In this document: positions 5,401-63,594 of the stretch, piece by piece
Layout: each line of letters starts with the position of its first letter
Numbering within the stretch: the stretch's first letter is position 1
DNA from: Xiphophorus maculatus
Lineage: Eukaryota > Chordata > Actinopteri > Cyprinodontiformes > Poeciliidae
Length of the DNA: 64,000 bases
NCBI RefSeq assembly: GCF_002775205.1
Contig: NC_036447.1
Coordinates: 22,798,501-22,862,500 of the forward strand
Direction: 5' to 3'
Made by a program: the position numbers and the translations under genes
Notes under the pieces: generated by a model
Seen by the model: the letters and a program-made list of their open reading frames with translations, nothing else
What the model was told of the DNA's origin: nothing
Database searches by the model: none

Positions 5401-8400
5401 TATTCTGTTTCTTTTCTAGTGTAAATATCTTCGCACACTTGAAATAATTTACAAGTCACTTTTCAGCGAGATATATGAACTTGTTTTAAGTCAACAGTTT
5501 CTTAATCTTGATGAAAAAGTTTTAGTTCCACTGGCAGATAATTTCACTTAGAAGATGGGAAAAATGTCTTGTTATAAGTGAACAAATCTGCCAGTTGAAC
5601 CAGGGTTTTTTTAATCAATATTAAAAAATTATTTACTTACAAACAAGCTCAAATATCTTGCGGAAAGTTTAGTTGTTAGTTTGTTTGATCTTATCTCAAG
5701 TACACTAAGATGTTTTTTCAGTGTAGAACATGTAAAACTCAATAATATTATTATATCTTTTGCAGAAGATATAAGAATATTTTCAGCAAGGGTTTTACAT
5801 AAGTCTCTGTCCCTTTGCATTCAGTCTGCAATTTCAGCACATCTTCAAACTCCCACAATGAAACCAAAAAAATGTATTCTTTGGGTTTGGTTTCTCCCGG
5901 CTTCTGCTTCTTTCTGGCATCCATCTCTTAAATCCGTTGTTGCAAAAGTGAAGATTTACTGAACAAACGTCGGGGACACAAGGAAACGCAAAAATGGTAT
6001 TCTGTGGGTAAAATGGGCGGCAGATCTTTAGTTATCTGGAACCAGCTCCCAGTTTAAGTCCCTGAGGTAGACACTCTGTTTACTTACAGGATTATGCTTA
6101 AAACATACCTTTCTTTTACCAACCGGCAATAAATAATCAATTGAATTCGATTGTATTGCGTTATTATTTGGACTGTAACTGGCCTGACTGTATGGCTTGA
6201 CTGTAATATTGTACAGTGCTTTTGAGATGTCAGTTGTATTGAATTATATATATAGATATACACCAAAAGAAGGACTTGCACTGAAAAGCACTGGGATATA
6301 ATGACCACTACATAATAAAATGAGAAATAAATGCTTGAGTGAAATATTCTCAAGTTCCTCTTTCTATGGTGAGAACAATGACGTCACCGACACGAAGACC
6401 TCCAAGCTCAGCAAATACACGGTTTGAAGAGCAACTTCCTATTTATGTGGCGATGAGTTCACGAATGAGATGTGGTTGTAATTTTCGGCGCCCTCTCAGA
6501 TCTGACAGCAGTGGAGCTAAAACTGTTTCAACGTTGGACATATTTGTCACAGCAGGACAGCCTAAAATATTGAACGGTTGTGAATTTTCTACATATTTGG
6601 TAGTAAAAGTTTACAATTTCCTTTTGTGGACTGATTTTTGAAGCGAGACGTTTTGGATTATGCAAAACAGAAATGTGTGCTTTTTTACACAAACGAGTAA
6701 CTCTACATATATTGAATAGTTTAACAGATACTGATAGATTTGTTTAGAGTCCTGGATAATAGACATCATTTGGACTTTCACACAAATTAAAACTTTTTTT
6801 TATTAATGTACTAATGAATTTAACAATTTACCGCTGAGAGGTTCTGGTTTGTGCTTGGAAATTTACTCATTTATTTATTATCTATTCATTAAATGCATCC
6901 AAATATAACTTTGGACGCATTTATTAAATTTTGGGGCAACAACCACGGTAACGTGTACTTTTAGCTTAGCATGTTATAGAATACAGGTCCTTCTCAAAAT
7001 ATTAGCACATTGTGATAAAGTTCATTATTTTCCATAATGTAATGATAAAAATTGAACATTCATATATTTTAGATTCATTGCACACAAACTGAAATATTTC
7101 AGGTCTTTTATTGTCTTAATACGGATGATTTTGGCATACAGCTCATGAAAACCCAAAATCTCACAAAATTAGAATATCACGAAAAGGGTCTCTAAACGAG
7201 CTTGAACCTAATCATCTGAAGCAACGAATGAACTCTAAACACCTGCAAAAGATTCCTGAGGCCTTTAAAACTCCCAGCCTGGTTCATCACTCAAAACCCC
7301 AATCATGGGTAAGACTGCCGACCTGACTGCTGTCCAGAAGGCCATCATTGACACCCTCAAGCAAGAGGGTATGACACAGAAAGATATTTCTGAACGAATA
7401 GGCTGTTCCTAGAGTGCTGTATCAAGGCACCTTAGTGGGAAGTCTGTGGGAAGGAAAAAGTGTGGCAGAAAACTCTGCACAACGAGAAGAAGTGACCGGA
7501 CCCTAAGGAAGATTGTGGAGAAGGACCGATTCCAGAGCTTGGGGGACCTGCGGAAGCAGTGGACTGAGTCTGGAGTAGAAACATCCAGAGCCACCGTGCA
7601 CAGGCGTGTGCAGGAAATGGGCTACAGGTGCCGCATTCCCCAGGTCAAGCCACTTTTGAAACAGCGGCAGAGGCGCCTGACCTGGGCTACAGAGAAGCAG
7701 CACTGGACTGTTGCTAAGTGGTCCAAAGTACTTTTTTCAGATGAATGCAAATTTTGCATGTCATTCGGAAATCAAGGTGCCAGAGTCTGGAGGAAGACTG
7801 GGGAGAAGGAAATGCCAGAAGTCCAGTGTCAAGTACCCACAGTCAGTGATGGTCTGGGGTGCCATGTCAGCTGCTGGTGTTGGTCCACTGTGTTTTATCA
7901 AGGGCAGGGTCAGTGCAGCTAGCTATCAGGAGATTTTGGAGCACTTCATGCTTCCATCTGCTGAAAAGCTTTATGGAGATGAAGATTTCATTTTTCAGCA
8001 AGACCTGGCACCTGCTCACAGTGCTAAAACCACTGGCAAATGGTTTACTGACCATGGTATCACTGTGCTCAATTGGCCTGCCAACTCTCCTGACCTGAAC
8101 CCCATAGAGAATCTGTGGGATATTGTGAAGAGAAAGTTGAGAGACACAAGACCCAACACTCTGGATGAGCTAAAGGCCGCTATCGAAGCATCCTGGGCCT
8201 CCATAACACCTCAGCAGTGCCACAGGCTGATTGCCTCCATGCCACGCCGCACTGAAGCAGTCATTTCTGCAAAAGGATTCCCGACCAAGTATTGGGTGCA
8301 TAACTGTACATAATTACTTGAAGGTTGACTGTTTTTGTATTAAAAACACTTTTCTTTTATTGGTCGGATGAAATATGCTAATTTTGTGAGATAGGAATTT

Positions 8401-45200: not shown

Positions 45201-47407
45201 TCCTTCTTCTCTGGCCACGCTTCTTTTGCCTTGTACTCCATGCTGTATTTAGCGGTGAGTTTCTACGTTTTCTATGAATATCTTTTCTTTTTTTTTCATA
45301 AAAATGGAAATACGTCAGCTAAAGAAATGATCATTTAAAGTTTGTCTATGTCTTACTGAAAGTGTAACCTTGTAAACACACATAGAAACCATTTATCAAA
45401 ATGTACCACATTAGTTAGTGTGTGTTTAATTCTTTGATAGTCGAGCACCAATGAGTTCACAATGAACTTAAATGTTATGTTATTGTGCAGGTTCACCAAT
45501 CAGACATCAGGGTCTTTTTTTAAAGACGTTTTAAATAATTTTCTTCAGAAGTAAATATAGCCAAATGAATTGATCAGTAGAGATTTAAAACTATGATAAA
45601 TTCAAGTTTTATTTGACGATTTTCACATTAAATGAATTAGAAATACTGTTAATAAATAAATAATAACTACTGTTGTTAAATTACTTAACAGCCCCTTAAA
45701 CAATTTTAGATAGACTTCTGTATTTGCTTTGTATCAAATGTCGAATTTCACTTATATTATCAAGAATTTATTTCATGTTTTTTCTTTTTCTACTCCTCCG
45801 TTCTTTCGCACCACGAAGCACTCTCGTTGACTAGCCAAACTCGGAATATTTATATTTCTCCTGTTACAGTCGTCGTGTTCATATATTGGAAAAGAAAAGA
45901 AAACATTTCTGCGGCATTTATTTGTCGTCAGTGCAGTTAGCGACATAAAGTGAAATAATGAGCGAGGACGGAGAGCGAAGGATACGAGGCAGACAAAGGC
46001 CGCTTTGTTTCACTGTGGGAGGAGCGTCACTGTGGCCCCCACAGCTCTGCTGCATTGTGTGTGAAATGTGTGTGGATGTGGATGTGGGAGCTTGTGTGTG
46101 AACCCCGGTGCCCTCATCACAAGTTGGATTAGAACGAGTTCAATTCGCTGATTTTAATACTCCAAATCAAGCTTACAGTAATTATTTAAAAAAAAAAAAA
46201 AATCAATAAGACTAAACTAAACAACCCCCTCAAAACCTTAGACCTTGAACTCAGATTAAGGTTAAAACTTGTAGTTGTAATAATTAGTGAAGCAATCAGA
46301 CTCCGTTTGGAGAGTCGATACTGTCTCAAACATATTTAGACCAAAAATTTGAAACATCTTTACAAACTCACATAATAAGAGCAATTTTGTCATAATGTTA
46401 CAATAAAACACTTTAAGCGTTATTTATAGAGCACAATTCAGCAACAAGGTAGTTCAAAGTGCTTTACGTCATAAAAACATCATACGGTTAGCAGTTACGA
46501 AAGAAGCAACAAACATATCTTGTTAAATGCCATCATCAAAATCATCCAGGAAATACACATCAAATATATTGATCAATGTTCCAGTTATGAGTAAAGGCAG
46601 CTCTAAACAGGAGGGCTTTTAGCATTGATGAATTCAGTGTTTCGACATCTTTACGGTTTTCTGGAAGTTTGTTCTAAGATTTCTAATGCATATGACAAAA
46701 GAAACAACAACAAATTGTTCTCGAGCAGCTGAACGTTATGGGTTTGCAAATAAGTCTTACAAAAAGGAAGTGGGGGTTTCAATTAAAGGCCGACCTTTAA
46801 TATCAATGAAGAAGAAAGAAAGCTAACAGGTGTGAAAGTCCAAAACAAAAGATTTCCTGACTTTCATCCTGGGAAAAGAGCTCTGTCGATCTTTGGTGCT
46901 GTCCATTTTTATTACAGTCAGCTTTAAACCACTTTTTAGTTCTTTCCTGATTTACTCATGAATTGCTGAATGATCTCCAGAGCATTAAACATGTTGTTGT
47001 TGTTTGTAGTTCTACCTGCAGGCGAGGCTGACGTGGCGCGGCGCTCGGCTGCTGAGGCCGCTGCTGCAGTTCTTCCTGGTTCTCCTGGCTGTCTACACGG
47101 GTCTGACCCGCATCTCGGACTACAGGCACCACCCGTCGGACGTGCTGACAGGATACGTGCAGGGGGCTCTCACTGCGTACTGGGTGGTCAGTATTCCTCA
47201 CCGTCCCTGTTTGGTTCATCGGAGCGCGTCCACATGTCAGAGTCCGCTCGTGTCTCAAGTCGTGTTTGTGTTTGTCTGTTTCCCTTCCCCGCCTCCCCGC
47301 ACCGCCAGGCTTTCTACATCTCGCCGATGTTCAAAGGCTGTACGTCGGACCCGTCCTCGGCCGAGAAGCCGGACGGCCCCCCGTCTCCTCAGCAGACTGT
47401 CTGCTGA
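39222..47407 (+). CDS. phospholipid phosphatase of the LPP family (PLPP2/PLPP3-like), six exons
   Basis: Exons: 39222-39423, 43748-43905, 44088-44374, 45197-45254, 47010-47186, 47309-47407; GT-AG sites and phases agree, giving 326 residues. Six TM helices are expected. All three catalytic motifs are intact: C1 K170...R177-P178 ([10 protein letters not shown]), C2 S221-G-H223 ([10 protein letters not shown]) and C3 R269...H275...D279 ([12 protein letters not shown]). N192-C-T is the usual luminal glycosylation site. It is thus an active-type ecto- or luminal lipid phosphate phosphatase (phosphatidate, lysophosphatidate, sphingosine-1-phosphate), unlike inactive PLPPR proteins. The long N-terminal tail (about 54 residues before TM1), [10 protein letters not shown] and [15 protein letters not shown] look most like PLPP3. 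The 19p-like neighbourhood instead points to PLPP2 or to an ohnologue lost in mammals, so no symbol is given. The C-terminal tail is short and proline-rich, ending QQTVC. Confidence 0.88.
40745..41060. mobile_element. hAT-like MITE with GTTGTCCCGAT termini
   Basis: Left end TAGGGTTGTCCCGATT, right end TTGTATCGGGACACCCCC. The inside is rich in ATATCGAT/ATCGGTAT motifs. The inverted ends and the GATATCGATATC inner sequence are typical of a common fish non-autonomous hAT family. An exact 8-bp target duplication is not obvious. Confidence 0.65.
42045..42360. repeat. hAT/Charlie-like repeat fragment
   Basis: GCGTCAAACTCGAGGCCCGT followed by GGGCCAAATCCGGCCCGCCA is the recognisable end of a widespread vertebrate hAT-type repeat. 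The sequence that follows is AT-rich and consistent with its interior. Confidence 0.6.
43921..44020. repeat. (CCCACA)n low-complexity tract
   Basis: C/A-rich stretch in intron 2 of the PLPP-like gene, just after the exon 2 donor. Confidence 0.9.
44422..45111. mobile_element. 690-bp Tc1-like MITE in PLPP intron 3
   Basis: Flanked by TA on both sides (44420-44421 and 45112-45113). Left end CAGGTGTGGGTTAATAAATT and right end CTAATTTATTGAGGTTCACCTG form diverged terminal inverted repeats that extend inward (GTTAATTTATTTAATCAATT against CTGAAACAAATTCCCTTTTG). No transposase is seen. It lies 85 bases before the exon 4 acceptor. Confidence 0.72.
44535..44562. repeat. (GACA)n microsatellite
   Basis: Short AGACAGACAGACAG tract inside the 690-bp MITE. 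Confidence 0.8.
46395..46700. repeat. fish LINE/SINE-like interspersed repeat (copy B)
   Basis: GCGTTATTTATAGAGCACAA, TTCAGCAACAAGGTAGTTCA, AAGTGCTTTACG and TTTTCTGGAAGTTTGTTCTA parallel the 36105-36690 copy. Located in PLPP intron 4. Confidence 0.6.
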
Positions 47408-48481
47408 AAACCCCACAAGCCAGAGGAGCGCCTGGCAATTTCCTCTGAAATCAAAAGACATACCTCAGCGTTTTGACAGGGGGAGCAGACAAAGACTTTC
47501 GGAGACAATTTCTGCAGCTCATAAAAGAGAGAGAGAGAGAGAGAGAGAAAAGACATTGAAGTGATTGAGAGGAAGCAACAGAAGGAGACTGAAAACTGCA
47601 TCTGTTATGTAAACAGACTGAGCCCGCGACCTTTTGCCCTTGTGACTGGTAACCTGTGAGGTGAGACTGAAAACAGGAGCCACCATAACTACGCACCACT
47701 TGTACATGTATAAATATTTTTAAGGCACAAAGGATAACGTCAAGGCACATTTCATTTCAGTGTTAGTGTCATTACCACGTTGCAATGAATAGAACGTAAT
47801 ATATTTTTTTATAAACACAGATTGTATTATTTAACAGTTTTTACATAATTTCATACGCTGCTGAATGTAAGTACTCATTTTTTCTTCATGCGTTTGGCCA
47901 GATGTAGGATTTGTTGTGTCATAAGAAAACGACTAATAGACTTCCTAACAGAATATAACATACAGGAAAAATACTGAAATCATCAGCAGAGGTCATTTGT
48001 GATGTACACGTGTCAGTGTTGCTAGAAGTAAAATGTTTTATAAATATTTTGTGTTTTGATTGTGATTATTTTCCTCTTACTGCAAAAAAAAAGTATTTTT
48101 GGTCTATGTTTTAGTGTAAATATCTAAATAACCTTTAAATAGGACAAAACTAGCTTACAAGTAATTTTCTACAAGATATAGGAGCTTATTTTAAATAAAT
48201 AATTCCTCAATATTGATGAAAAGGTATTATTTCCACTGGCAGATAATGTCACTATTGTCATAGTAAAAATATTCTTGTTATAAGTGAAATAATATGCACT
48301 GGAAATAATGCTTCTTAGTGTGAAATTAAACTCTACCAAAACGTATTGTACTCCAAATATCTGAAGCTCATTCTACTAGAAAATTCACAAAAAAAGTGTT
48401 TGCATTTTTCAGTTTTAGAAAACGTGATAAGCAAGAATATGATTTTGTACAATGAATGCAAAATTACAGGCTGATAATAAA
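47408..48481 (+). promoter_or_regulatory. 3' UTR of the PLPP-like gene
   Basis: Contains a (GA)n run at 47526-47549. Candidate AATAAA signals are at 48194-48199 and 48476-48481. The first lies inside the MITE half copy at 48079-48330, so the transposon may supply or extend the transcript end. The real end is unknown. Confidence 0.45.
48079..48330. mobile_element. half copy of the CACTGCAAAAA foldback MITE
   Basis: ACTGCAAAAA, then CTTACAAGTAATTTTCTACA, AGATATAGGAGCTTATTTTA, CCTCAATATTGATGAAAAGG and TTTCCACTGGCAGATAATGT. These match the left half of the 5372-5723 element in the same order. Confidence 0.7.
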
Positions 48482-53367: not shown

Positions 53368-55343
53368 TCACAGGCTCGTCACCCGCTGCATCTGTCCGTC
53401 GTCTCCCTCAGAAGTGGGCTCTGCCGCGTACCCTGTCTCTCCGTTTGAAGCCAGTGGCGGGGGCTGGTAGAAGGTCTGCAAGTGATTGGGCCGTGGGCCT
53501 AACGGCGGGCGCCCCAGGCTGTAGGGCAGCTCCAGAGTGGGCCGCTGGGGCTGATGCCCACTGGTAGGGCTGACTTCTTCTGGGCCTTCGGGGCTGCTGT
53601 CTGGGTACATGTGAGTCGGTGGAGAGGTGCGGGTGTAAAAGCGGGGAGGGGAGCCGCTGCGGCTGTACACCTGCGGAGAGTGGCGGGAGTAGAGTTTACC
53701 CGGCGGCGAGTTGTCTTCTCGTGGCACGAAGATGTTTGTCGGCGGAGAGTTTCGGGAGAAGATGTTCAGTGGCGGAGAGCGGCGGTCTCCAGGGTATAGA
53801 GGGGACGGGTTCGAATCCCGTGTGTAGATGGGCGAGGAGTCTGGGTCCAAGTCGAGATCGGGCGTTAAAGGTAGGGTGAAGCTGTCTGAATCCTGTCGCT
53901 CGCCATGATACCGCAGAGACCCTCTGTCTTTCCCTCTGATCCTCCCGTCTAGGCCTCCATCTTTGTTTTCGAATGAGAAAGACTCCTCCCTGTCCAAATC
54001 TATCCCGCCTCTCCAAACATCCAGAGCTCTGTCCTTCTGTTTCTCGCTCTCTCGTTCGATCCCTGCCCTCCACCCATCTCTGTCCTTCAGGAAAAAGGAT
54101 TCGTCCGACTCTCTTTCTACCTCACTTCTCCAACCATCCATACCAAAGTCTTTCTTCTGAGTGATAAAAGTCTCCCCCTGCTCTGTCTCCCCTGCTCGCC
54201 ACAGCTCGAGTCGTCCGTCTCTCTTCTCGAGGATTTTAGATTCCTCCCTGCCTCTCTCGATGCCAGCCCTCCACTCATCCATCGTGCCATCTCGCTTATG
54301 AGAGGTAAAAGACTCGTCTCTTCCCCTCTCGGTTCCTCCTCTCCAGTCGTCAGACATTCCGTCTCTGTTCAGCAGAAATGTCTCCTCCTTTTCCCTGTCC
54401 TGGCCACCTCTCCATGCCTCTACAACCGCTTCTCTCTGCTTCATAAGCAGTGGCTCTTCCAGAGCCTTGTACAGCGACTCTGACTCCTGTGGTGGTGGGG
54501 GAGGAGGTGGAGGGAGAGGTCTGTCTCGATAGCGATCCCTGTCTCGGTCTGCCCCTCCAGTAGACTCCGCCGTGCTGCGGTGGCGGGACAAGGTACCCGG
54601 GGTGCGGCTTAGGGTAGAATAAGGCCGAGCTTGGACATCTGGTGGTCGAGCCGGCTGCCTTTCCTGGTGTCCACGCCTGCCCAGAGTACCTTGCAGCTGT
54701 GAGCGGTCTCCGTCTTTGAGTAACTCCTGGGTGTCGGAATCTCCAGAAATGCGTCCGTGTGACCAGTCGTCTTGTAAGCGAGGCGTGGTGCCATGCTCTT
54801 GACCCCGTGTGGCGGCATTTGCCTCGGCGTCCTGTGTGGGCGGCCTTGCATGCGCCCAGCCCTCTTGCGCGTTCTGCCGAGAGCTCGGCTGCACCGTGGC
54901 AGACCAGCCCTCTTGCGAGGGCTGCGGGTGGCGGGTTAACGTAGCGGTGTGAGTAAGAGCTGGCCTCTCGTGGTGATGCGGCCTCGCCAGGCTCCCATAG
55001 CGCTCGGGCGGAACGGGCATGGGAACGGAGGGGCGCAGGTTGCTCTGCACCAGCTCCGAGATGATCATCTTCTCCAGAGCCACCGCGTCGGACAGATTAC
55101 GACGCATTCCGGCTCCGCTGTTGAGATCTGTCGAGCTGTGCGGCGTGAGGAGCCCCGGCGAGACGTCATCACCTCCAAGCCCAACACCCCCCTCCCTGAG
55201 GAGGTCGGCGCTGCCCACTACTCCCGCTCGGGACCCGGGCGTTGTACCCAGACCATGAAGGGTGAAGGTGTTTGGGGTGTAGCCTCCATTGAGACAAACA
55301 CTGTCCAAGGCGCAGGATTCCTGGCTCTGTGACACTCCGCCCT
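53368..55343 (-). CDS. adgrl1: adgrl1 last exon: expanded repetitive cytoplasmic tail
   Basis: A single exon of 1976 bases encodes about 657 residues, more than twice what I recall for the mammalian last exon. The acceptor CTCACAG lies just right of 55343. Conserved latrophilin landmarks at both ends confirm the frame: [25 protein letters not shown] and [12 protein letters not shown] early, YPDSSPEG and [10 protein letters not shown] late. Between [10 protein letters not shown] and YPDSSPEG are two arrays. One (about 54420-53926) has seven or eight units of roughly 20-24 residues, pattern xxWRxGxERxRxESFxxxxRDG, with Trp spacing 23, 24, 24, 23, 20 and 19. The other (about 53838-53590) has SPPxxFYSR-like units. 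A poly-Pro stretch precedes LYKALEEP. The tail is highly charged and likely disordered. It is a real part of this reading frame; expression is inferred. Confidence 0.88.
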
Positions 55344-58300
55344 CTGTGAGGAGAAATAAAGATATTAAAGTAAAAAAAAAAAAAAAAAAACAGAGAAGAC
55401 TGAAACAAAGACGGAAAGGCACATAATGAATGAACGAATGAATGAATGGATACAGATTGGCGTTCATATGTCGCTGAAGGTGGAGCGTTACTAGGAGGAC
55501 TTGGGAGATAAACAAGCTGTTCCTTAATGAAATGTCTGCTCATGTTGAAACATGGAGAGGTGTAAGTTATGCCTTTACAGCACCTTGCAAAAGTATTTCC
55601 ACCTCTTCAACATTATCCCACATTGTCACATTACAACCTTCAATGGATTTTGTTGGGATTCTAAATGAATAACCATCACAATTTTTTTAAATGTGTTTTC
55701 ATCTGTCCTGAATTAATACTTTGCGAAGGCCCATGTTGCTGCTTTTTGGGCTATGACTCTACCATCTACGCACGTGAGACTGTAATGTCTCCCTTTTCTT
55801 GCTAAGTAGCTCAAGCTGAGTTGGACTTTTAAATCTTGTCATAGATTTTCAGTCAGATTCAGGTCTGGACCTTGATTGGAACAATGATACACATCAATAT
55901 GTTTCGTTTTAAGCTATTCCATTGAAGACTATCGCTGTATGTTGAGCGTCTTTTTCAGCTTCCCAAAACTTTACTTCCAGTATTACCTTGTATTTCGCTC
56001 CAACTTCCTATCAACCCTGACCAGCTCTCCTGACCCATTGTTTCTTTTAAGGGCAAATAGGTCAATTTTGGACAAACTTCTTCTACATGTTTGCTGTTTA
56101 GTTGGGCGGCCATATCTTCCATTTTCGCAGGACAGACTGAGCGTGACAAAATGTTGAGACGAAAAAGAAGCACGAATAATTTTGCAAGAAGACTACATGG
56201 TTTGTGCAACTTTACTTTCTGCAGCTGTTGTGCTGAATGAATTGAAAAAAGACATGGTGCTCAATGACTTAAAGGAGCACAAAAGGAAAAGAGGTCATAC
56301 TCTGTTTGTTTCTGAAGGTTCCTACTGGTCCACGTAAAGACACACAGAGACAGAGAAGGAAAGCATGAAAAACATTTATAAACAACAAAAAACATTAAAA
56401 GAAAAAAAAAAGAAATTGGCAAAAAAAGAGTCATCTTTCTCAGACTGAAATAAACTAAAAGCTTTATAAGTTTCAGGGACAGAATAAGACAGTAAACATG
56501 ATGAACAAAAACAAGCACACAAATATTTATCAATGTACATTATTAAAAATTATGTTGCATTACACATAAAATGATCTATAGCCACTCTTTCAGGCTTACT
56601 TGGAGTTTATGAGCTTTTAACCTCTAACTTTCAATTGAATATTGTTGTCTAATCTTGGTATTTGTTGACGTAAAGTTATATTTTATATACTTTGATTACA
56701 GCTGCATTGGCTCAGCACAGGTGATAAACAGGTCTGTCTGTTGCCTTTTGTCCTCTTTTTCGGCCATTTTGTTGGGCGCGGTGGCCCGATGGGACCGGTA
56801 GTAGCGTGAACTCACCAATGAATGTCAACATTGGGGTTGTGGTTGACACACCAGTGCACCAGCTTTGCTTTTTAGGATTTGTAATATCAGCTGTGTGTCC
56901 AACATCCAGGCAGCTCTAATGGAAATTTGCAAGTATCTCCCAGGCCAATTATAATTACAGCCTGATTTTTACACATGCAATCTAAAACAATGTGACCAAA
57001 AAAAAGTGCAAATAGTTTTTCACAGCATTATTATTTAGATTTAGCAGCTGACGTATCCCTAATTTCACAAAATGATACTGAAACATGTTCTTTAAATTAC
57101 AATGTTGAATTTTTACACTCCTACATAATATCAGTTTATTTTAATATTTTGAAAATACTGAAAAGTGTCTTTTTTTCTGGAATCTTCCCCAATAGAGACA
57201 CAATTAACTTTTGTCCCATGAAATATTCACATCTGAAGTTGAGTAATAACTTAAAGTGACTCTGAACATACGCTCAACAATAAAAATATCCTCTAAAAAA
57301 CACTGAGATCCATAGCACCCACTTGTTTTCTTAGATATACCAGTAAAAATGGAAAGATCACATGTGATTTAATGGGACGTACCAGTGGAAGTGAAGGGCT
57401 GATTGTATCCCTGCGCCAGCATCGTGTCATAGGGAGAAGCTCCAGCATGAGTTTGCAGCATTTGGTTTGTCAGAAAATGGTTTCCCAAAGCAGCTGAAGG
57501 AGAGAGAGGAAAACACGTCAAAATGTTTCGCTTTTTTTTTATTTTCACAGCAGGCTGAAAGCAGAGCTAATTCCCCAAACCTCACCTCTGTTAAGAGTCG
57601 GAGTATTGTTAACATCTGCGGCGATGAAGGAGGACTCGGTCTGCCTGCGAACCGTGTCGTTCCACATCCTCCTGATGCGGCTCTGGAGTGGGAAATGAGC
57701 TCGCGGTTAAACAGTGGCTGGGGGTCAAACAGAGCCGCCGGCAGGTAAAACGCACCTGTCTGTTCGCCGTAGCTCTCCGGCTCTGGCTGCTGGTGTAGCG
57801 GCTGTTGGAGCGAAGCGCCGCGCCTTTCACCGAGTCCGGAGAGCTGGAGGAGGACGTGGCGCAGCACTGGGAGAGACGCAGGCATCGGCCGTAATCCTTC
57901 TGACCCTAAACCGCCGTTTACGCAAGACGGAGAGTTTAGTCGCAGAGAAACGGACGTGTGCCATTGCATAACGACTCCTGGATGCTGACCTTTCTGGCGA
58001 GCGTGCAGTGGAGGATGGTGATGAGGAGCGCCTGGGCTGTGTTGAGGGAGGTGAAGAGGTAAGCCAGCAGGAGAGACGGACCCGACAGGAACATCAAGCC
58101 CGAGGACCAGGTGACGCTCAGCAGGAATAGGAGAGTCAGGGAGCCCACGGCCCAGGCCCTGCAGGCCAAGCAGCCAGGTCACACAAGATACAGGGAGGTT
58201 ATTTTATTTCACTTTATTTATTATTTTTTACAAATTAAACACAGTGGTGATGGAGATAGAGAGAGCCTGCAAAAAACTTAAATGTGGAGCAGAACAACAA

Positions 58301-61300
58301 CAGGAGTAGATTATTATTCACGTCTAAATCTGAATATAATCTGTGGGCAGAATTGAAAATGTACACAGACCCCACCGATTGTATGCGGCTGAGTTTGAGC
58401 CAATTTTGCAAATATGAAATAGCAAAAACATCTCAAATCTGGCAAAGGCCTTTGCTTAAAGGCTTGCAGTGGTTCTAGAACGTGTTAATTCAGGGCGGGT
58501 GAAAGCAAATATATGACACTTTATGTGTGCAAAAACAAAATGCCGAAAACTATCTCATATTTTATACTTTATATCTGTGCACTGCTTTTGTTGGTCTGCC
58601 ACACAGAGGCTCCAGAAAATACGTTACGTTTTGTGGCTGTAAGGTGATAAAACAAAGAATGGATTTTGCAACTCCTAAAAAAAAGCTTCCATAAACTGCA
58701 GCATGCCGTTTTAAATTTATTTTTCATTTAGTCCTTTAAAGCAATCAATTTTTTAAAGATAATCCCTGAATTTCAGATCTGCTCTGCGTTTTGAACATCA
58801 TCAGTGGACGCCATCTTAGACACCCCACAGAAACGTTTCACCTTCCTGTTTTGTGTTATGACAAAACACACTGAGGAGGAGATGGCGACCTGATTACCTC
58901 TTGCTTGACATTCCCCAGCTGCGTTCCTGTCCACATTAACTGTTTGTTTTAGTTTTGTTTGTTCTTTTATTTTGTCACAGGGACAGAGATAAGTTTTTTT
59001 GTCTATCAGCACAAGTCGACATAAACCTCACACCGGGGTTTTGAAACATTTTAATGTCACTTGAATTCTGTTTTCCCGCAGAACCTGAACAAATACGTTA
59101 CAAACACTATCTTATGTATGACTCAATACCTTTTGGAATAAATCTACCTCTGAAATATTCACAGTAACAAGATTTCCTGTTGCTGTACCGAAAACTTTTC
59201 CACACTTTCTTTTTTTTATTTCCTCTGTGGATGTTCGGCTCTGCGTGTAACTCACAACGAATCTAAACCTTAAACAAAAATGTTCCTGAGTTTTTCTCCG
59301 AACAGTTGTATAAAAGCAAAGCGGGAACCCCACCGTGAGACACACGGCAAGCTCCAGCAAAGGTGACGGACAAAGCTCATACATATTCCCTGTTGCGTGC
59401 AGAAAGTTGATTCTTTCATATTTTGTCTCTATCCAACATCCAGGTGACGCTGATTTCAAAACCTCAGAGAGACTTTTTGTCAATGTTAACTCGAAAACCT
59501 TGAAATTTCCGACTTCACACATCAAAAAAAACGGAAAAAAAAAAAGGTGGCGCTGTAAAAGCTCGACACGCCACGAATTCTTCAAACATTGTACCGATTT
59601 AAACTCATTCAGACACCGTGACCTTTATTCAAACGGCACGAGGCAGTCTGACTGACCGGAGGTTGTCGTGGCGACTGGAGTCGGGCTTGAGTGCAGCAGT
59701 GCTGTGCATCTTGTGTAGGGTCATCACCAAGACAACCAGGTTCAACTGAGGCAAACGAGCAAAGACAGATATGTTATTTAATGACATTAGAGAGACACAA
59801 AACATTTTAACTTTTTTTTTTATCCCTCTACAACAGCAACATTTCATTGTAATATTTCAAAGTGCTGTTTATCCATTTTTCAGGTTTTCTGAAGGCTTTC
59901 GAAGTTTTCGTTTGGACTTTGGCTGCTCTGTCAATCGTTTTCAATCCAGTCGTTGTTCTTGACAGTGGCAGCGTATTGCACAGAACAATCTCAAAAAGTA
60001 AACTGGAGGACAGAACTGTCACACGTTAAAAAACTTTTTTTTTTAAAAAAAACATCTTCTTCTGACAGAGTGCATCCTGAGTTCCTGCTAACTGTCTGTT
60101 TTTAAACGTCCAAGCATGCCCTGACTCAGAAGTCAGCGTTTTTGCAACATGCATTTGACATTTGAGCAGCAAGACATTTATTATCTCATGATCTCATTAT
60201 TTCGTTATTTCGTTATCATGAGATATCATCCTGGAGTGCGACATACACACTCCAGGATGGGTACATTCCACAATTTGTACAAATTGTGGCACAAATTGAA
60301 ACAAATTGTTTCACGATTTGTACATTCCACAAATCGTGAAACAATGCAACGATCATTAGTTTCTCATTCTGAAGCCCCAATTGGCTATTTTATAAGTTAT
60401 TGGCATCTGGAACTGAGATCATCTGTTATCACAACGTCTGATTTAAGATACTTTCACTTTAGTTATAAGCTGAAAACAATTTGAGTATGAACATTTTGTT
60501 AAGTGCCACCAGTCCAGTTTAAAACAAAACCCTGATTGTAGGAATAATGTCTGACGCTTTGGAAACAAGAAATAAAGAAATGAGAGACAACTGAAAAATA
60601 TTTGCACGATACAATGCAGCAGTACCCACCGTAATGATGACAGCTACAGGTCCGAGGAAACTCCAGATGAAGTAGTTATCTGTGCGCAGCCAGCACCTGT
60701 AACAGGACCAACAGCCAGAGAAATAATAAAACTCCTCTTGGTGACGTTAGGCAGCAGGAAAAAGATCAGTACATCAAAATGGATAGATGTTCTCACACAA
60801 CAGCAATAGATAAAAAAAATCAATTTGACTATTTCAGTAAAATATTCTGAGGGGAGTAGATAGGAGTTGGGAGGAGCAACCAATAAGCTCACACAGCATG
60901 TTCTTTAGTTGTCCTTACTTATTTAGTCTTTTTTTTCTGGCTTGTTTTTTTTTTTTCTTTCCCACTTTTACCCAAAATACGTGTGTGTGTGTCACTAGAT
61001 TAGTTAAAGCAAGGAATATTAAAAAAAAAAAAAAAGCATATGGGGAGGAAACAATAATTGGAAAATAACTGCAAAGAAGAAAATAAAAAAGCATAACCCA
61101 CTTGCATTTTGTGTCGTGACACCACTTGGTTATGTTCTGTGTTTTGTCATGTCCAAAATGTGTGCATTTTAACTTGTTTTTTTTCCCTCTCACACTTTTC
61201 TTTGTTAATTTTTGTTGTTGCCTTTTCTCTCTGCTAATCTAATTGGTTATTTTGCAGATCAAAACGTCCGTCTGCCAGCCTGTAGTGGTTGTTTTGTGTG

Positions 61301-63540
61301 CACTAATTGGTGTCTTTAAAAAAAATAAAAAATAAAGACAGTAGGGAAAACAGAGCAATTCCCACACTCATCAACTTACGCCGTTTTTGAACCGTATCCT
61401 CTGAAGTCGATGGCTGCCGACACGGCCACCACCAGCCCGGGCACAGAGTAGCCGCAGAGGTAAAAATACTTCCTCCTGGAGTTGCGTCCCTCGAACACTT
61501 CCCTCTGCAGAAGGTACAGCTCCACTGCCTCCAGGCACAACCAGCAGAACACGGACAGCAGCGAAAAGTGCAGCAGCCCAGCGGTGATGGAGCAGAGGAC
61601 CTGGAAACGGGAGTGCAAAATGAGCAACCACAAAAAAAACTAAATTAACCAATTCATGCTGATTTGTCTGATATCAAAATACTGACCGTATACTTAGTCT
61701 TGTTGGCACCGATAAGGAAGATGAGTTCTGTGATGAGCAGGTTGGCCCACAGGTTGCAGTGAATGGTGCTGTGGTCAGTGTGCCACGGCGCCCCCTGGCA
61801 GCAGAGGGTGATAAGGCAGGTAGCCAAACACACAAGAGCAACGGCGATGCCGACCCAGGAAACCACGTAGACCAGAAGCTCCTCCACACCGGCGCCGAAC
61901 TGTGAAGCAAATGTCACAGCGGGGCGTCGATTGGCGTGTGGAAAAACAACAAGAACGAACGAATGCAGAGGCAGAACGTTGGTGCAGATCCTAGAGCACA
62001 TGTGGATGTATTGTATAGTGTTTTGAGCTGTGTATTTATGTGTGTGTGTTTGTTACATAACATCTATTTATGTGAATAAATCACAGCTAATGAAGAGAAC
62101 ATCTTGCAGGGAACACTTAATTTAATTTCATGGCAGGACAAAATATCCTGCTGCATGTCTGCAGCAGCAATCCAACGCCTACTCTGCGTCTGATTTCCTC
62201 CTTAATTTAGAAACCACAGTGTCAGTCTGAGCTCTCTGAGCAAGAGGAAGAAATAAGGCAAAATTTGGCACATTGCCATTTGACACAACAGCAGTGACAT
62301 GTCTTATAATCAACTATTCTAACACATGTAGAAAAGAACATGACATGCTTTATTAATATTGGCAAACAACAGTTTTTAAGCGTTGAGATCAAACCTAACT
62401 CAAATTTAGAGACAAAATTAATTGGCCACACTGGATTGTGTAAAAAAAACAAAAAAAACCCACTTTCAATCAGTTCCTCTCTTATTTCTAGAGCTCTAAC
62501 GACGCCTACAACAACTCTCCAGACCAGACCAGACACGATATCGAGTTCATAGGAACGAGACGCTACGCTTCAGGAACGTCTTTGTTCTGCTTTTTTTATT
62601 GATTTTTACTACAAACTCAACAACCTGATGTCTGATATTACTCTGCCGCCATTTATTGTTCCAGCTCGGAACTGAATGCAGGCAAATAAACGTTTTAGCC
62701 CTTTTATTACACCTGCCTCAGGAGGAGCCAAGCTGACGCTAACTGACTGGTGCTCATGAGGTAGCAGACACCTCGATGAGAAACGTTGTGATGTTTTAGG
62801 GTGCGTTCACACCAGGAAAGTCCTTGGTCCTCTTGGACTTTGTTTATTTTTTTCACCCGGTGCGGTTTGCATTCATTTTGTGCTTCTTTGCAGCAGTTAC
62901 ATTCAGTTACACGGCCCAAATCCTTGGTGTGCTTGCCGCTGATCTCTACCGGAGGCCCAACAAACTTTTCCGTGTCTAAAGCTGTATCCAATGCTGTCGT
63001 GTACAGATGTGCAACTTACAACTGGTTGCTGGTAAGTCATGAGGACGGCATAGCTGGACAGATGGTTGCACGCACAAGTCGTGTGCGTGTTGTTTGTGTG
63101 CAGCAGGCGGCAGCCCTGCGTGGACCACCTGCCGCTGCCAGAAACCCCCGAAGCGTTCCAGAAAGAACAGTTGGGACCAAAGTGATTTTCCAGCTGCGGA
63201 CGAAAATAAAAACACGGCCGAATATCCCGTGAGAGGCTGCGAAGGAAACTCAGGACCCAAACAGGAGGGATTTACTCTATCTAAATGTTAATCTGGACGT
63301 AATTGGATGCAAATACACATACCTGGAGATGTCTGAGAGTGAAGATCACCGGCGCAGTGAGGTACACCCGGTTGGTGCCTCTGTGCACAGAGGCAGAGAT
63401 GACATGGGAGTTGACCACCAGGCTCCTGCGCCGGGGCTCTTGGCCTTGGGCAAGTCCCAGTCCCAGACGCAAAGTTGAGTTCTGGGTGGTGAGGAAGGGG
63501 CCCAGGTTCTTAAAGAGGGAAAGGACCAACTTCACCTGAC
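53368..63540 (-). CDS. adgrl1: latrophilin-1 (adhesion GPCR L1), 3' part, eleven exons, 5' end outside window
   Basis: Exons (minus strand): 63540-63323, 63193-63020, 61899-61687, 61600-61380, 60696-60630, 59745-59657, 58158-57990, 57899-57756, 57682-57586, 57493-57383, 55343-53368. All GT-AG, phases agree, 1158 residues in the window. Order: the end of the GAIN domain ([20 protein letters not shown]), the GPS site ([15 protein letters not shown], cleavage expected between Leu and Ser), the 7TM core, then latrophilin tail motifs [51 protein letters not shown] and a terminal VTSL PDZ-binding end. Known role: synaptic adhesion receptor binding teneurins/FLRTs and coupling to G proteins. TM3-ECL2 cysteines (VLCS, ACWL) are kept. 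Several usually invariant stretches differ (TWSSGLMFL where latrophilins have TWAFGLLF), suggesting a fast-evolving fish duplicate. The lectin and olfactomedin exons must lie right of the window. Confidence 0.92.
55575..56190. repeat. decayed Tc1-type repeat (copy 6)
   Basis: CAGCACCTTGCAAAAGTATT, CACATTGTCACATTACAACC and ATTTTGTTGGGATTCTAAAT open the copy. Later parts include CAGTCAGATTCAGGTCTGGA, TTACCTTGTATTTCGCTCCA, ATCAACCCTGACCAGCTCTC and TTCTTCTACATGTTTGCTG. This is the longest and best-ordered copy of the family in the window, in an adgrl1 intron. Confidence 0.75.
58320..58700. repeat. decayed Tc1-type repeat (copy 7)
   Basis: GAGCCAATTTTGCAAATATG, AGGCTTGCAGTGGTTCTAGA and TTTTGTTGGTCTGCCACACA, with TGTGGCTGTAAGGTGATAAA, follow the order of the family tail. 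Located in an adgrl1 intron (58159-59656). Confidence 0.55.
60183..60345. repeat. tandem run of four inverted repeats
   Basis: In the adgrl1 intron 59746-60629. (1) ATCTCATGAT 60183-60192 pairs with ATCATGAGAT 60215-60224. (2) CATCCTGGAGTG 60227-60238 pairs with CACTCCAGGATG 60248-60259. (3) Perfect 22-bp palindrome 60268-60289, centre GTAC. (4) 17-bp perfect stem 60305-60321 with 60329-60345 and a 7-base loop. GTACATTCCACAA-type sequence occurs twice, at 60261 and 60320. No transposon ends were identified. Confidence 0.9.
62804..63000. repeat. probable DNA-transposon remnant in adgrl1 intron
   Basis: GGGTGCGTTCACACCAGGAA at the left, then GGTGCGGTTTGCATTCATTT. This type of start is common among fish repeats and resembles the complement of the 51755-51840 terminus. 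It abuts the exon that ends at 63020. The right boundary is not defined. Confidence 0.4.
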
Positions 63541-63594
63541 CTGCAAAAGCAAAAGCCCAGGCAGGAAATCACTTCGTGAAGTTTAAGAGAATTA

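Follow-up and report, generated by a model that had tools for sequence, protein, structure and literature searches.

Latrophilins act in synapse building, and in one of these receptors the tail provides the link to postsynaptic scaffold condensates: according to the accessible part of the report on mouse LPHN3, its tail joins condensates of SHANK, GKAP, HOMER and PSD95, the C-terminal PDZ motif being required, and it was this motif together with the splice variant that mattered, not a repeat (PMC10830413). Teneurin is described to act through latrophilin clustering (PMC11808628, available excerpt), and a further paper, by its title, locates latrophilin-1 nanoclusters at inhibitory synapses (PMC11154861). 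In mouse Lphn1, the C-terminal tail can be lengthened by 45 residues through an insert at splice site B (excerpt of PMC6629964), and the zebrafish possesses both adgrl1a and adgrl1b among six latrophilins in total (PMC4765045, accessible text).

A neuronal GPCR with cytoplasmic repeats is not without precedent, but, going by the excerpts at hand, the known repeats are DNA-level VNTRs. The exon-3 repeat of the dopamine D4 receptor consists of 16-residue proline-rich units in intracellular loop 3 and is a DNA-level length-polymorphic VNTR; the same excerpt describes binding of this receptor to PSD-95 by way of the SH3 domain of the latter (PMC10454781). Trp-centred short motifs are known from PYCO1, a linker protein of the diatom pyrenoid, whose KWSP motif is, in the part of the report available, the sticker for the partner Rubisco, with binding lost upon W-to-A exchange (PMC10288592).

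The window analyzed here is the whole stretch of 64,000 nucleotides (C5:22798501-22862500) of the 704-Mb, 101-contig assembly of Xiphophorus maculatus that was also used for the genome searches. As judged from its DNA, it holds an intact-looking, fast-evolving duplicate of latrophilin 1 with a Trp array inside a segment common to its paralog. Like the D4 receptor, the product of this gene is a neuronal GPCR with a tandem repeat on its cytoplasmic side; by contrast, the present array has no DNA-level memory at lag 24, consists of a Trp/charged motif and belongs to an adhesion GPCR, in whose C-terminal tail it resides. PYCO1, disordered according to the available text, resembles the array in repeating a short motif built around Trp, and the array may be disordered as well; PYCO1 differs in being a plastid protein with ~80-residue repeats, another motif and a tested partner, and no homology is claimed. 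The mouse Lphn1 insert is, by its partially available description, a splice insert and thereby set apart from an array in the terminal exon; an older insert at a similar place in the tail may nevertheless have existed. The LPHN3 tail with exon 31 has, like the window tail, a C-terminal PDZ motif, and LPHN3 joins postsynaptic scaffold condensates; the accessible text does not mention a Trp array (PMC10830413), and none of the five other fish tails inspected here contains Trp. The literature on adgrl1b and latrophilin tail repeats, subscription papers aside, yielded no mention of the array in its accessible portions.

Identity of the receptor gene

A genome search with the PF02354 (Latrophilin) profile revealed six latrophilin genes; 25 exons matched at E <= 1, of which 22 exceeded the cut-off, with the terminal exon of the window gene scoring lowest among the six. 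When the whole terminal exon served as query, the only matches in the genome at E <= 1 were the exon itself and the gene on C16, which we take to be the canonical latrophilin 1. Tail identity to this paralog amounts to 40.2 % over 291 aligned columns, as compared to 22.6-32.5 % for the other four paralogs (pairwise). Since the C16 gene is the nearest relative and two of the six zebrafish latrophilins are adgrl1a and adgrl1b, the window gene probably represents a diverged second latrophilin 1 (adgrl1b-like), and the six loci fit the zebrafish set. The original prediction had assigned the array to latrophilin-1; this stands with respect to the type, but the gene appears to be a diverged duplicate, and the canonical copy on C16 is devoid of the array.

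The stop-to-stop frames of the C16 gene were compared by tblastn to the window and 30 kb beyond, weak chance rows being passed over, and they match in order among the matches listed: (i) four exons past the window end (76040-76255, 74232-74366, 70358-70699 and 69973-70323 on the window scale), presumably lectin-like and olfactomedin-like, with 74-91 % identity, (ii) the parts assigned to GAIN, GPS and 7TM with 44-84 % identity (again among the matches listed), and (iii) the terminal exon in three pieces with 32-56 % identity. Divergence of the duplicate, from 57381-63550 in the window to the exons past its end, is therefore uneven, as if ligand binding had been held and signalling changed. Pfam profiles recognize the GAIN domain (32.4 bits, cut-off 26.5) and the GPS domain (64.5 bits, cut-off 22.5), the latter in an exon at 63026-63196 (minus strand) with HLS at the position of the cleavage site, which we read as cleavable. 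One exon exceeds the 7tm_2 cut-off of 20.6 bits (39.5 bits) and a second one falls just under it (18.7 bits); this second exon belongs to the last 7TM and proximal tail exons (57381-58160, minus strand), recognized by means of the C16 frames and PF02354. Additional exons of 7TM type could be aligned to the C16 gene.

Among the 25 PF02354 matches, four (L006, L011 (C9), L015 (C5) and L019 (C16)) carry one internal stop, which may only reflect match ends running into a stop or an intron; the open frame of L006 (288 aa) ends normally in VTSL.

Coding status of the terminal exon

The terminal coding exon spans 53368-55343 on the minus strand, stop included, and consists of a single open frame of 657 aa with the C-terminus MQRVTSL. 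Its first base (55343) is preceded by the acceptor ATCTTTATTTCTCCTCACAG (score 7.6), and PF02354 matches the exon in two stretches with 52.5 bits (cut-off 27). The original claim that the array segment is coding and not a retained intron is borne out by the asymmetry between codon positions (mismatch between units of 0.41, 0.34 and 0.63 at positions 1, 2 and 3, respectively), by the splice acceptor and by the absence of a good donor near the array start. None of 5000 base shuffles of the array retained a stop-free frame.

Intron retention or easy skipping was rejected, since splice-site scoring found no donor above -0.6 in 54300-54560, near the array start, as compared to scores of 2.9 to 6.5 for four donors fitting upstream exon ends. 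Donor-like sites elsewhere in the terminal exon are located at 54125, inside the array (3.1), and at 55172 (2.4); combined with the five in-exon acceptors scoring above 2, they form eight ordered pairs, none of which removes a multiple of three bases. Partial skipping within the exon may still occur, since in-frame donor/acceptor pairs do exist, albeit with poor acceptors (e.g., 53840, -0.8).

Layout of the Trp array

A periodic Trp array in the tail is confirmed. It covers 53920-54426 on the minus strand (exon residues 306-474) and comprises seven Trp-bearing units of ~24 residues with the consensus xxDxWRxGxERxRxESFxxxxRDG, followed by a degenerate half unit. According to the alignment of units, unit 1 (54358-54426) has 23 residues, units 2 (54286-54357) and 3 (54214-54285) have 24 each, unit 4 (54145-54213) has 23 and unit 5 (54073-54144) has 24, the latter being one residue shorter in another alignment. 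The shortened unit 6 (54028-54072) has 15 residues and unit 7 (53956-54027) again 24, while the half unit (53920-53955, 12 residues; from frame reading and its MAFFT row) is without Trp; all units lie on the minus strand. The predicted "seven to eight" units accordingly reduce to seven, the eighth being this half unit, and even this number is not tightly constrained, because decay has affected units 4 and 6 and Trp is gone from the eighth.

The Trp residues occupy exon positions 310, 333, 357, 381, 404, 424 and 443, and their spacings of 23, 24, 24, 23, 20 and 19 residues agree with the steps of 19-24 residues noted originally. Self-identity at lag 24 reaches 43 identities (z = 9.2 versus residue shuffles), and the best z was matched by none of 2000 residue shuffles. 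Trp-Arg is kept in all seven aligned units and an acidic residue two positions before Trp in 6/6; Glu (unit column 15) occurs in 6/7, Ser/Thr in 6/7 and Phe in 5/6 (half unit not counted). In five units, this Phe follows 11-12 residues after Trp.

In composition, the array is a strong polyampholyte (charged residues make up a fraction of 0.47, with a net charge of -0.08 per residue), and its hydropathy of 0.339 lies below the disorder boundary of 0.441 in the charge-hydropathy plot. A single-sequence AlphaFold model of 210 residues yielded a mean pLDDT of 46.6, with 144 residues below 50; it contains three low-confidence helices and, near the array end, a short strand region forming a block with pLDDT 72-78. 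To judge by composition and the poor single-sequence model, the array may be mostly disordered. Neither this array nor the second one described below matched a Pfam family at E <= 10, and the best PDB sequence match (E 1.4) was unrelated.

Insertion specific to one paralog

The array is absent from all five other latrophilin tails of the same genome (C16, C9, C6, C14 and C5:11.99M), and Trp occurs 10 times in the 657-residue window tail versus zero times in the 1508 residues of these five tails, which were trimmed by eye and one of which was joined from two exons. The C16 latrophilin-1 tail agrees with the window tail in exon position, shared motifs (33 residues) and the terminal VTSL, but differs from its 657 coding residues in having a stop-to-stop frame of 310 residues without Trp, WR array or SPP array.

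The 10-residue flank before the array (54445-54474, minus strand) is identical in the C16 paralog, and the residues following it also align to C16. Past the array, an apparently ancestral segment of 22 residues resumes (53854-53919, minus strand), aligning to SVLYQSDPEESESYTADLTESL of C16 with a score of 42, attained by none of 400 shuffles. This post-array stretch also aligns to C9 (score 34, P 0.0025), and the comparisons with C6, C14 and C5:11.99M were not significant (P 0.83, 0.08 and 0.55). Because paralog sequence aligns on both sides, the array represents an insertion inside a segment common to the C16 paralog. The insertion between this flank and YPDSSPEG had been predicted; the accompanying description of the tail as "otherwise conserved" proved too strong, since the whole tail is expanded and diverged (291 columns aligned with C16, its nearest paralog, show 40.2 % identity).

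Searches of the home assembly with the array protein (E <= 0.001) and with the DNA of 53600-54450 (E <= 0.01) gave, among the candidates scored, no match other than the query itself. A transposon or a recent DNA minisatellite was rejected, with no TRF row of the unit period and the array DNA being single in the genome at E <= 0.01. Likewise, a bacterial origin was discarded: the pattern occurred in 31 stretches of the genome contigs collection, none of which was confirmed.

When individual units were compared to paralog tails, none beat the shuffles for the C16 segment (P 0.15-0.78); unit 5 scored 34 against C14 (0/400 shuffles) and 28 against C5:11.99M (P 0.0025), and the joint score of the seven units gave P 0.015 for C14, 0.035 for C5:11.99M and 0.19-0.91 for the other three paralogs. 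This may hint (SESFF) that the unit arose when a stretch still present in paralogs was duplicated.

Age and selection

No DNA repeat of the unit period was detected in the array by TRF, the sole row inside it having period 14 and covering 28 bases (54170-54197). Compared to codon-order shuffles, matches at lag 24 are in clear surplus at the first (z 3.8) and second (z 6.2) codon positions, the third showing little of it (z 1.3). If the protein is retained and its synonymous codons are randomized, 42.2 third-position matches are expected, as against 42 seen. Some third-position excess exists at lag 47 (z 2.3, P 0.02). A coding minisatellite or VNTR, with units alike in DNA, is hence not what was found, given the missing TRF period row and the random third positions at lag 24.

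The original prediction had proposed dN/dS between units as a check. For the 21 unit pairs taken together, pS amounts to 0.768 (saturated) and exceeds pN, which is 0.382 and somewhat lowered by the alignment of units partly by eye on protein similarity. In codon models, lnL was -495.3 with omega free versus -513.7 with omega = 1 for GY (difference 18.4, one parameter), and -490.5 versus -505.4 for MG (difference 14.9, one parameter), both with saturated branches, one of them at ~10, apparently the program bound. Omega = 1 is rejected with 2 dlnL of 30-37, a value obtained from seven short units with 24 columns and many parameters.

Saturation of synonymous sites between units indicates that the array is old, its motif having, as a robust outcome, survived almost all synonymous memory. 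The WRxGx(D/E)xxxxE(S/T)F core is preserved despite this saturation and was therefore maintained at the protein level; selection seems to have kept the Trp motif. Since the array is old, it may stand unremarked in the databases of other fishes.

Second array and remaining tail

A second array of ~10-residue units of the type SPPxx-hydrophobic-(Y/F) is located right behind the Trp array, at ~53587-53778 (minus strand), as represented by six regular-expression hits starting at residues 522-573; the same pattern has a single match in the C16 tail (SPAHDSLY). The region 53587-53892 displays periodicity at lag 10 (z = 5.6, 0/3000 shuffles), and its third codon positions retain excess matches at lags 10 (P 0.013) and 23 (P 0.008), with none at lags 9 and 13. 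Because of this remaining excess, the SPP array looks younger or more recently homogenised.

Three further Trp residues outside the Trp array (QEGW, QEGW and QDDW; exon residues 146, 162 and 193; 54763-54906, minus strand, from frame reading) reside in the region before the conserved flank, where periodicity was not significant (P 0.79). The tail is expanded as a whole, including its proline tract, its SPP array and the part upstream of the flank. The C-terminal VTSL (53371-53382, minus strand) is of the PDZ-ligand type and common to four of the five paralogs, with C6 ending in ITSL.

Coding DNA beside the SPP array (53805-53821) forms a perfect T-arm-like hairpin, ACGGG TTCGAAT CCCGT (GGTTCGAATCC, ~53808). 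No tRNA was called within the 64-kb window, so the hairpin is probably due to chance.

Possible function of the array

The properties described above point to a putative multi-site docking or clustering function gained by this copy. It is tentatively proposed, at somewhat short of an even chance, that a multivalent, disordered Trp-motif tail clusters the receptor or recruits scaffolds as a gain of function in one duplicate. The array would then act as a charged, mostly disordered string of equivalent short linear motifs, with Trp, and in five units the Phe 11-12 residues further on, as contact residues. With seven low-affinity sites per tail, avidity could arise towards a Trp-pocket partner, or towards scaffold proteins or further tails; triggered by teneurin or FLRT binding outside, array and retained C-terminal PDZ ligand would help to cluster the receptor and to recruit submembrane scaffolds. 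A SHANK scaffold may be the wrong partner, since latrophilin-1 nanoclusters are, by the title of that paper, located at inhibitory synapses (PMC11154861). A broader version is rather doubtful: once latrophilin 1 had been duplicated in fishes, one of the two copies would have kept the extracellular adhesion domains and rebuilt its tail as two motif arrays (Trp-Arg/Phe and SPP-Tyr), yielding a multivalent clustering or scaffold module of its own instead of one PDZ contact.

The main rival, unlikely in itself, is that the units dock one specific partner with a Trp pocket (an endocytic adaptor, kinesin light chain or another trafficking protein) and set trafficking rather than condensation. Partners of this kind are commonly bound through low-affinity motifs in tandem, and a WR core in 7/7 units with an acidic residue two positions before Trp in 6/6 would suit them; yet kinesin W-acidic motifs require an acidic residue after Trp, where Arg follows here, we know of no Trp motif that fits the array exactly, and the PDB comparison gave nothing notable (best E 1.4, unrelated). 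A still smaller likelihood attaches to a charged, disordered spacer that extends the reach of the C-terminal PDZ ligand, with sequence detail being minor. High charge at near-neutral balance and expansion of the whole tail (proline tract, SPP array and region before the conserved flank) speak for it, but a spacer needs no Trp-Arg in every aligned unit after synonymous saturation and agrees poorly with the sign of selection on the units, i.e., the rejection of omega = 1.

The original prediction had named phosphorylation besides multivalent binding, and of these two ideas the phospho-array is the weaker, because basic-x-x-Ser/Thr-Phe occurs in just three units. The Ser/Thr of R-x-E-(S/T)-F would constitute basophilic kinase sites with Phe at +1, reading cAMP or calcium signalling; (K/R)xx(S/T)F at three places and REESK at one more agree with this. 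Units 4, 5 and 6 are, however, without the basic residue at -3 or without Ser/Thr, Trp-Arg and not Ser is the best-kept part, and Glu stands at -1, which is unusual for basophilic kinases, rendering such a platform improbable. Folding of the units as a small helical repeat in place of disordered motifs is very improbable: the regular steps of 23-24 residues in the first five units and the three low-confidence AlphaFold helices are opposed by pLDDT below 50 for 144/210 residues, Gly beside Trp and at unit ends, the absence of a Pfam repeat family match and the broken register of units 4 and 6. Hardly credible, finally, is a relic, i.e., a decaying duplicate with a neutral or unexpressed array; fast divergence of 7TM and tail would fit, but exons match in order and without stops from lectin-like part to tail (among the matches listed), the lectin-like/olfactomedin-like exons have remained 74-91 % identical to C16, and the array carries a selection signal.

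A natural duplicate that has retained the extracellular domains and carries an old, apparently selected Trp array amounts to an evolutionary experiment on the link between tail and scaffold, with the canonical copy in the same animal as built-in control. It also illustrates cleanly how a receptor can diverge after duplication via growth of a motif array and not by point changes alone.

Neighbouring features

An open frame of 210 aa on the plus strand (7681-8313) matches DDE_3 (PF13358, 60.6 bits) and is probably a piece of a Tc1/mariner-type transposase. At 47010-47564, likewise on the plus strand, an exon of the PAP2 family (PF01569, 42.3 bits) probably belongs to a gene for a phospholipid phosphatase that follows the latrophilin gene downstream.
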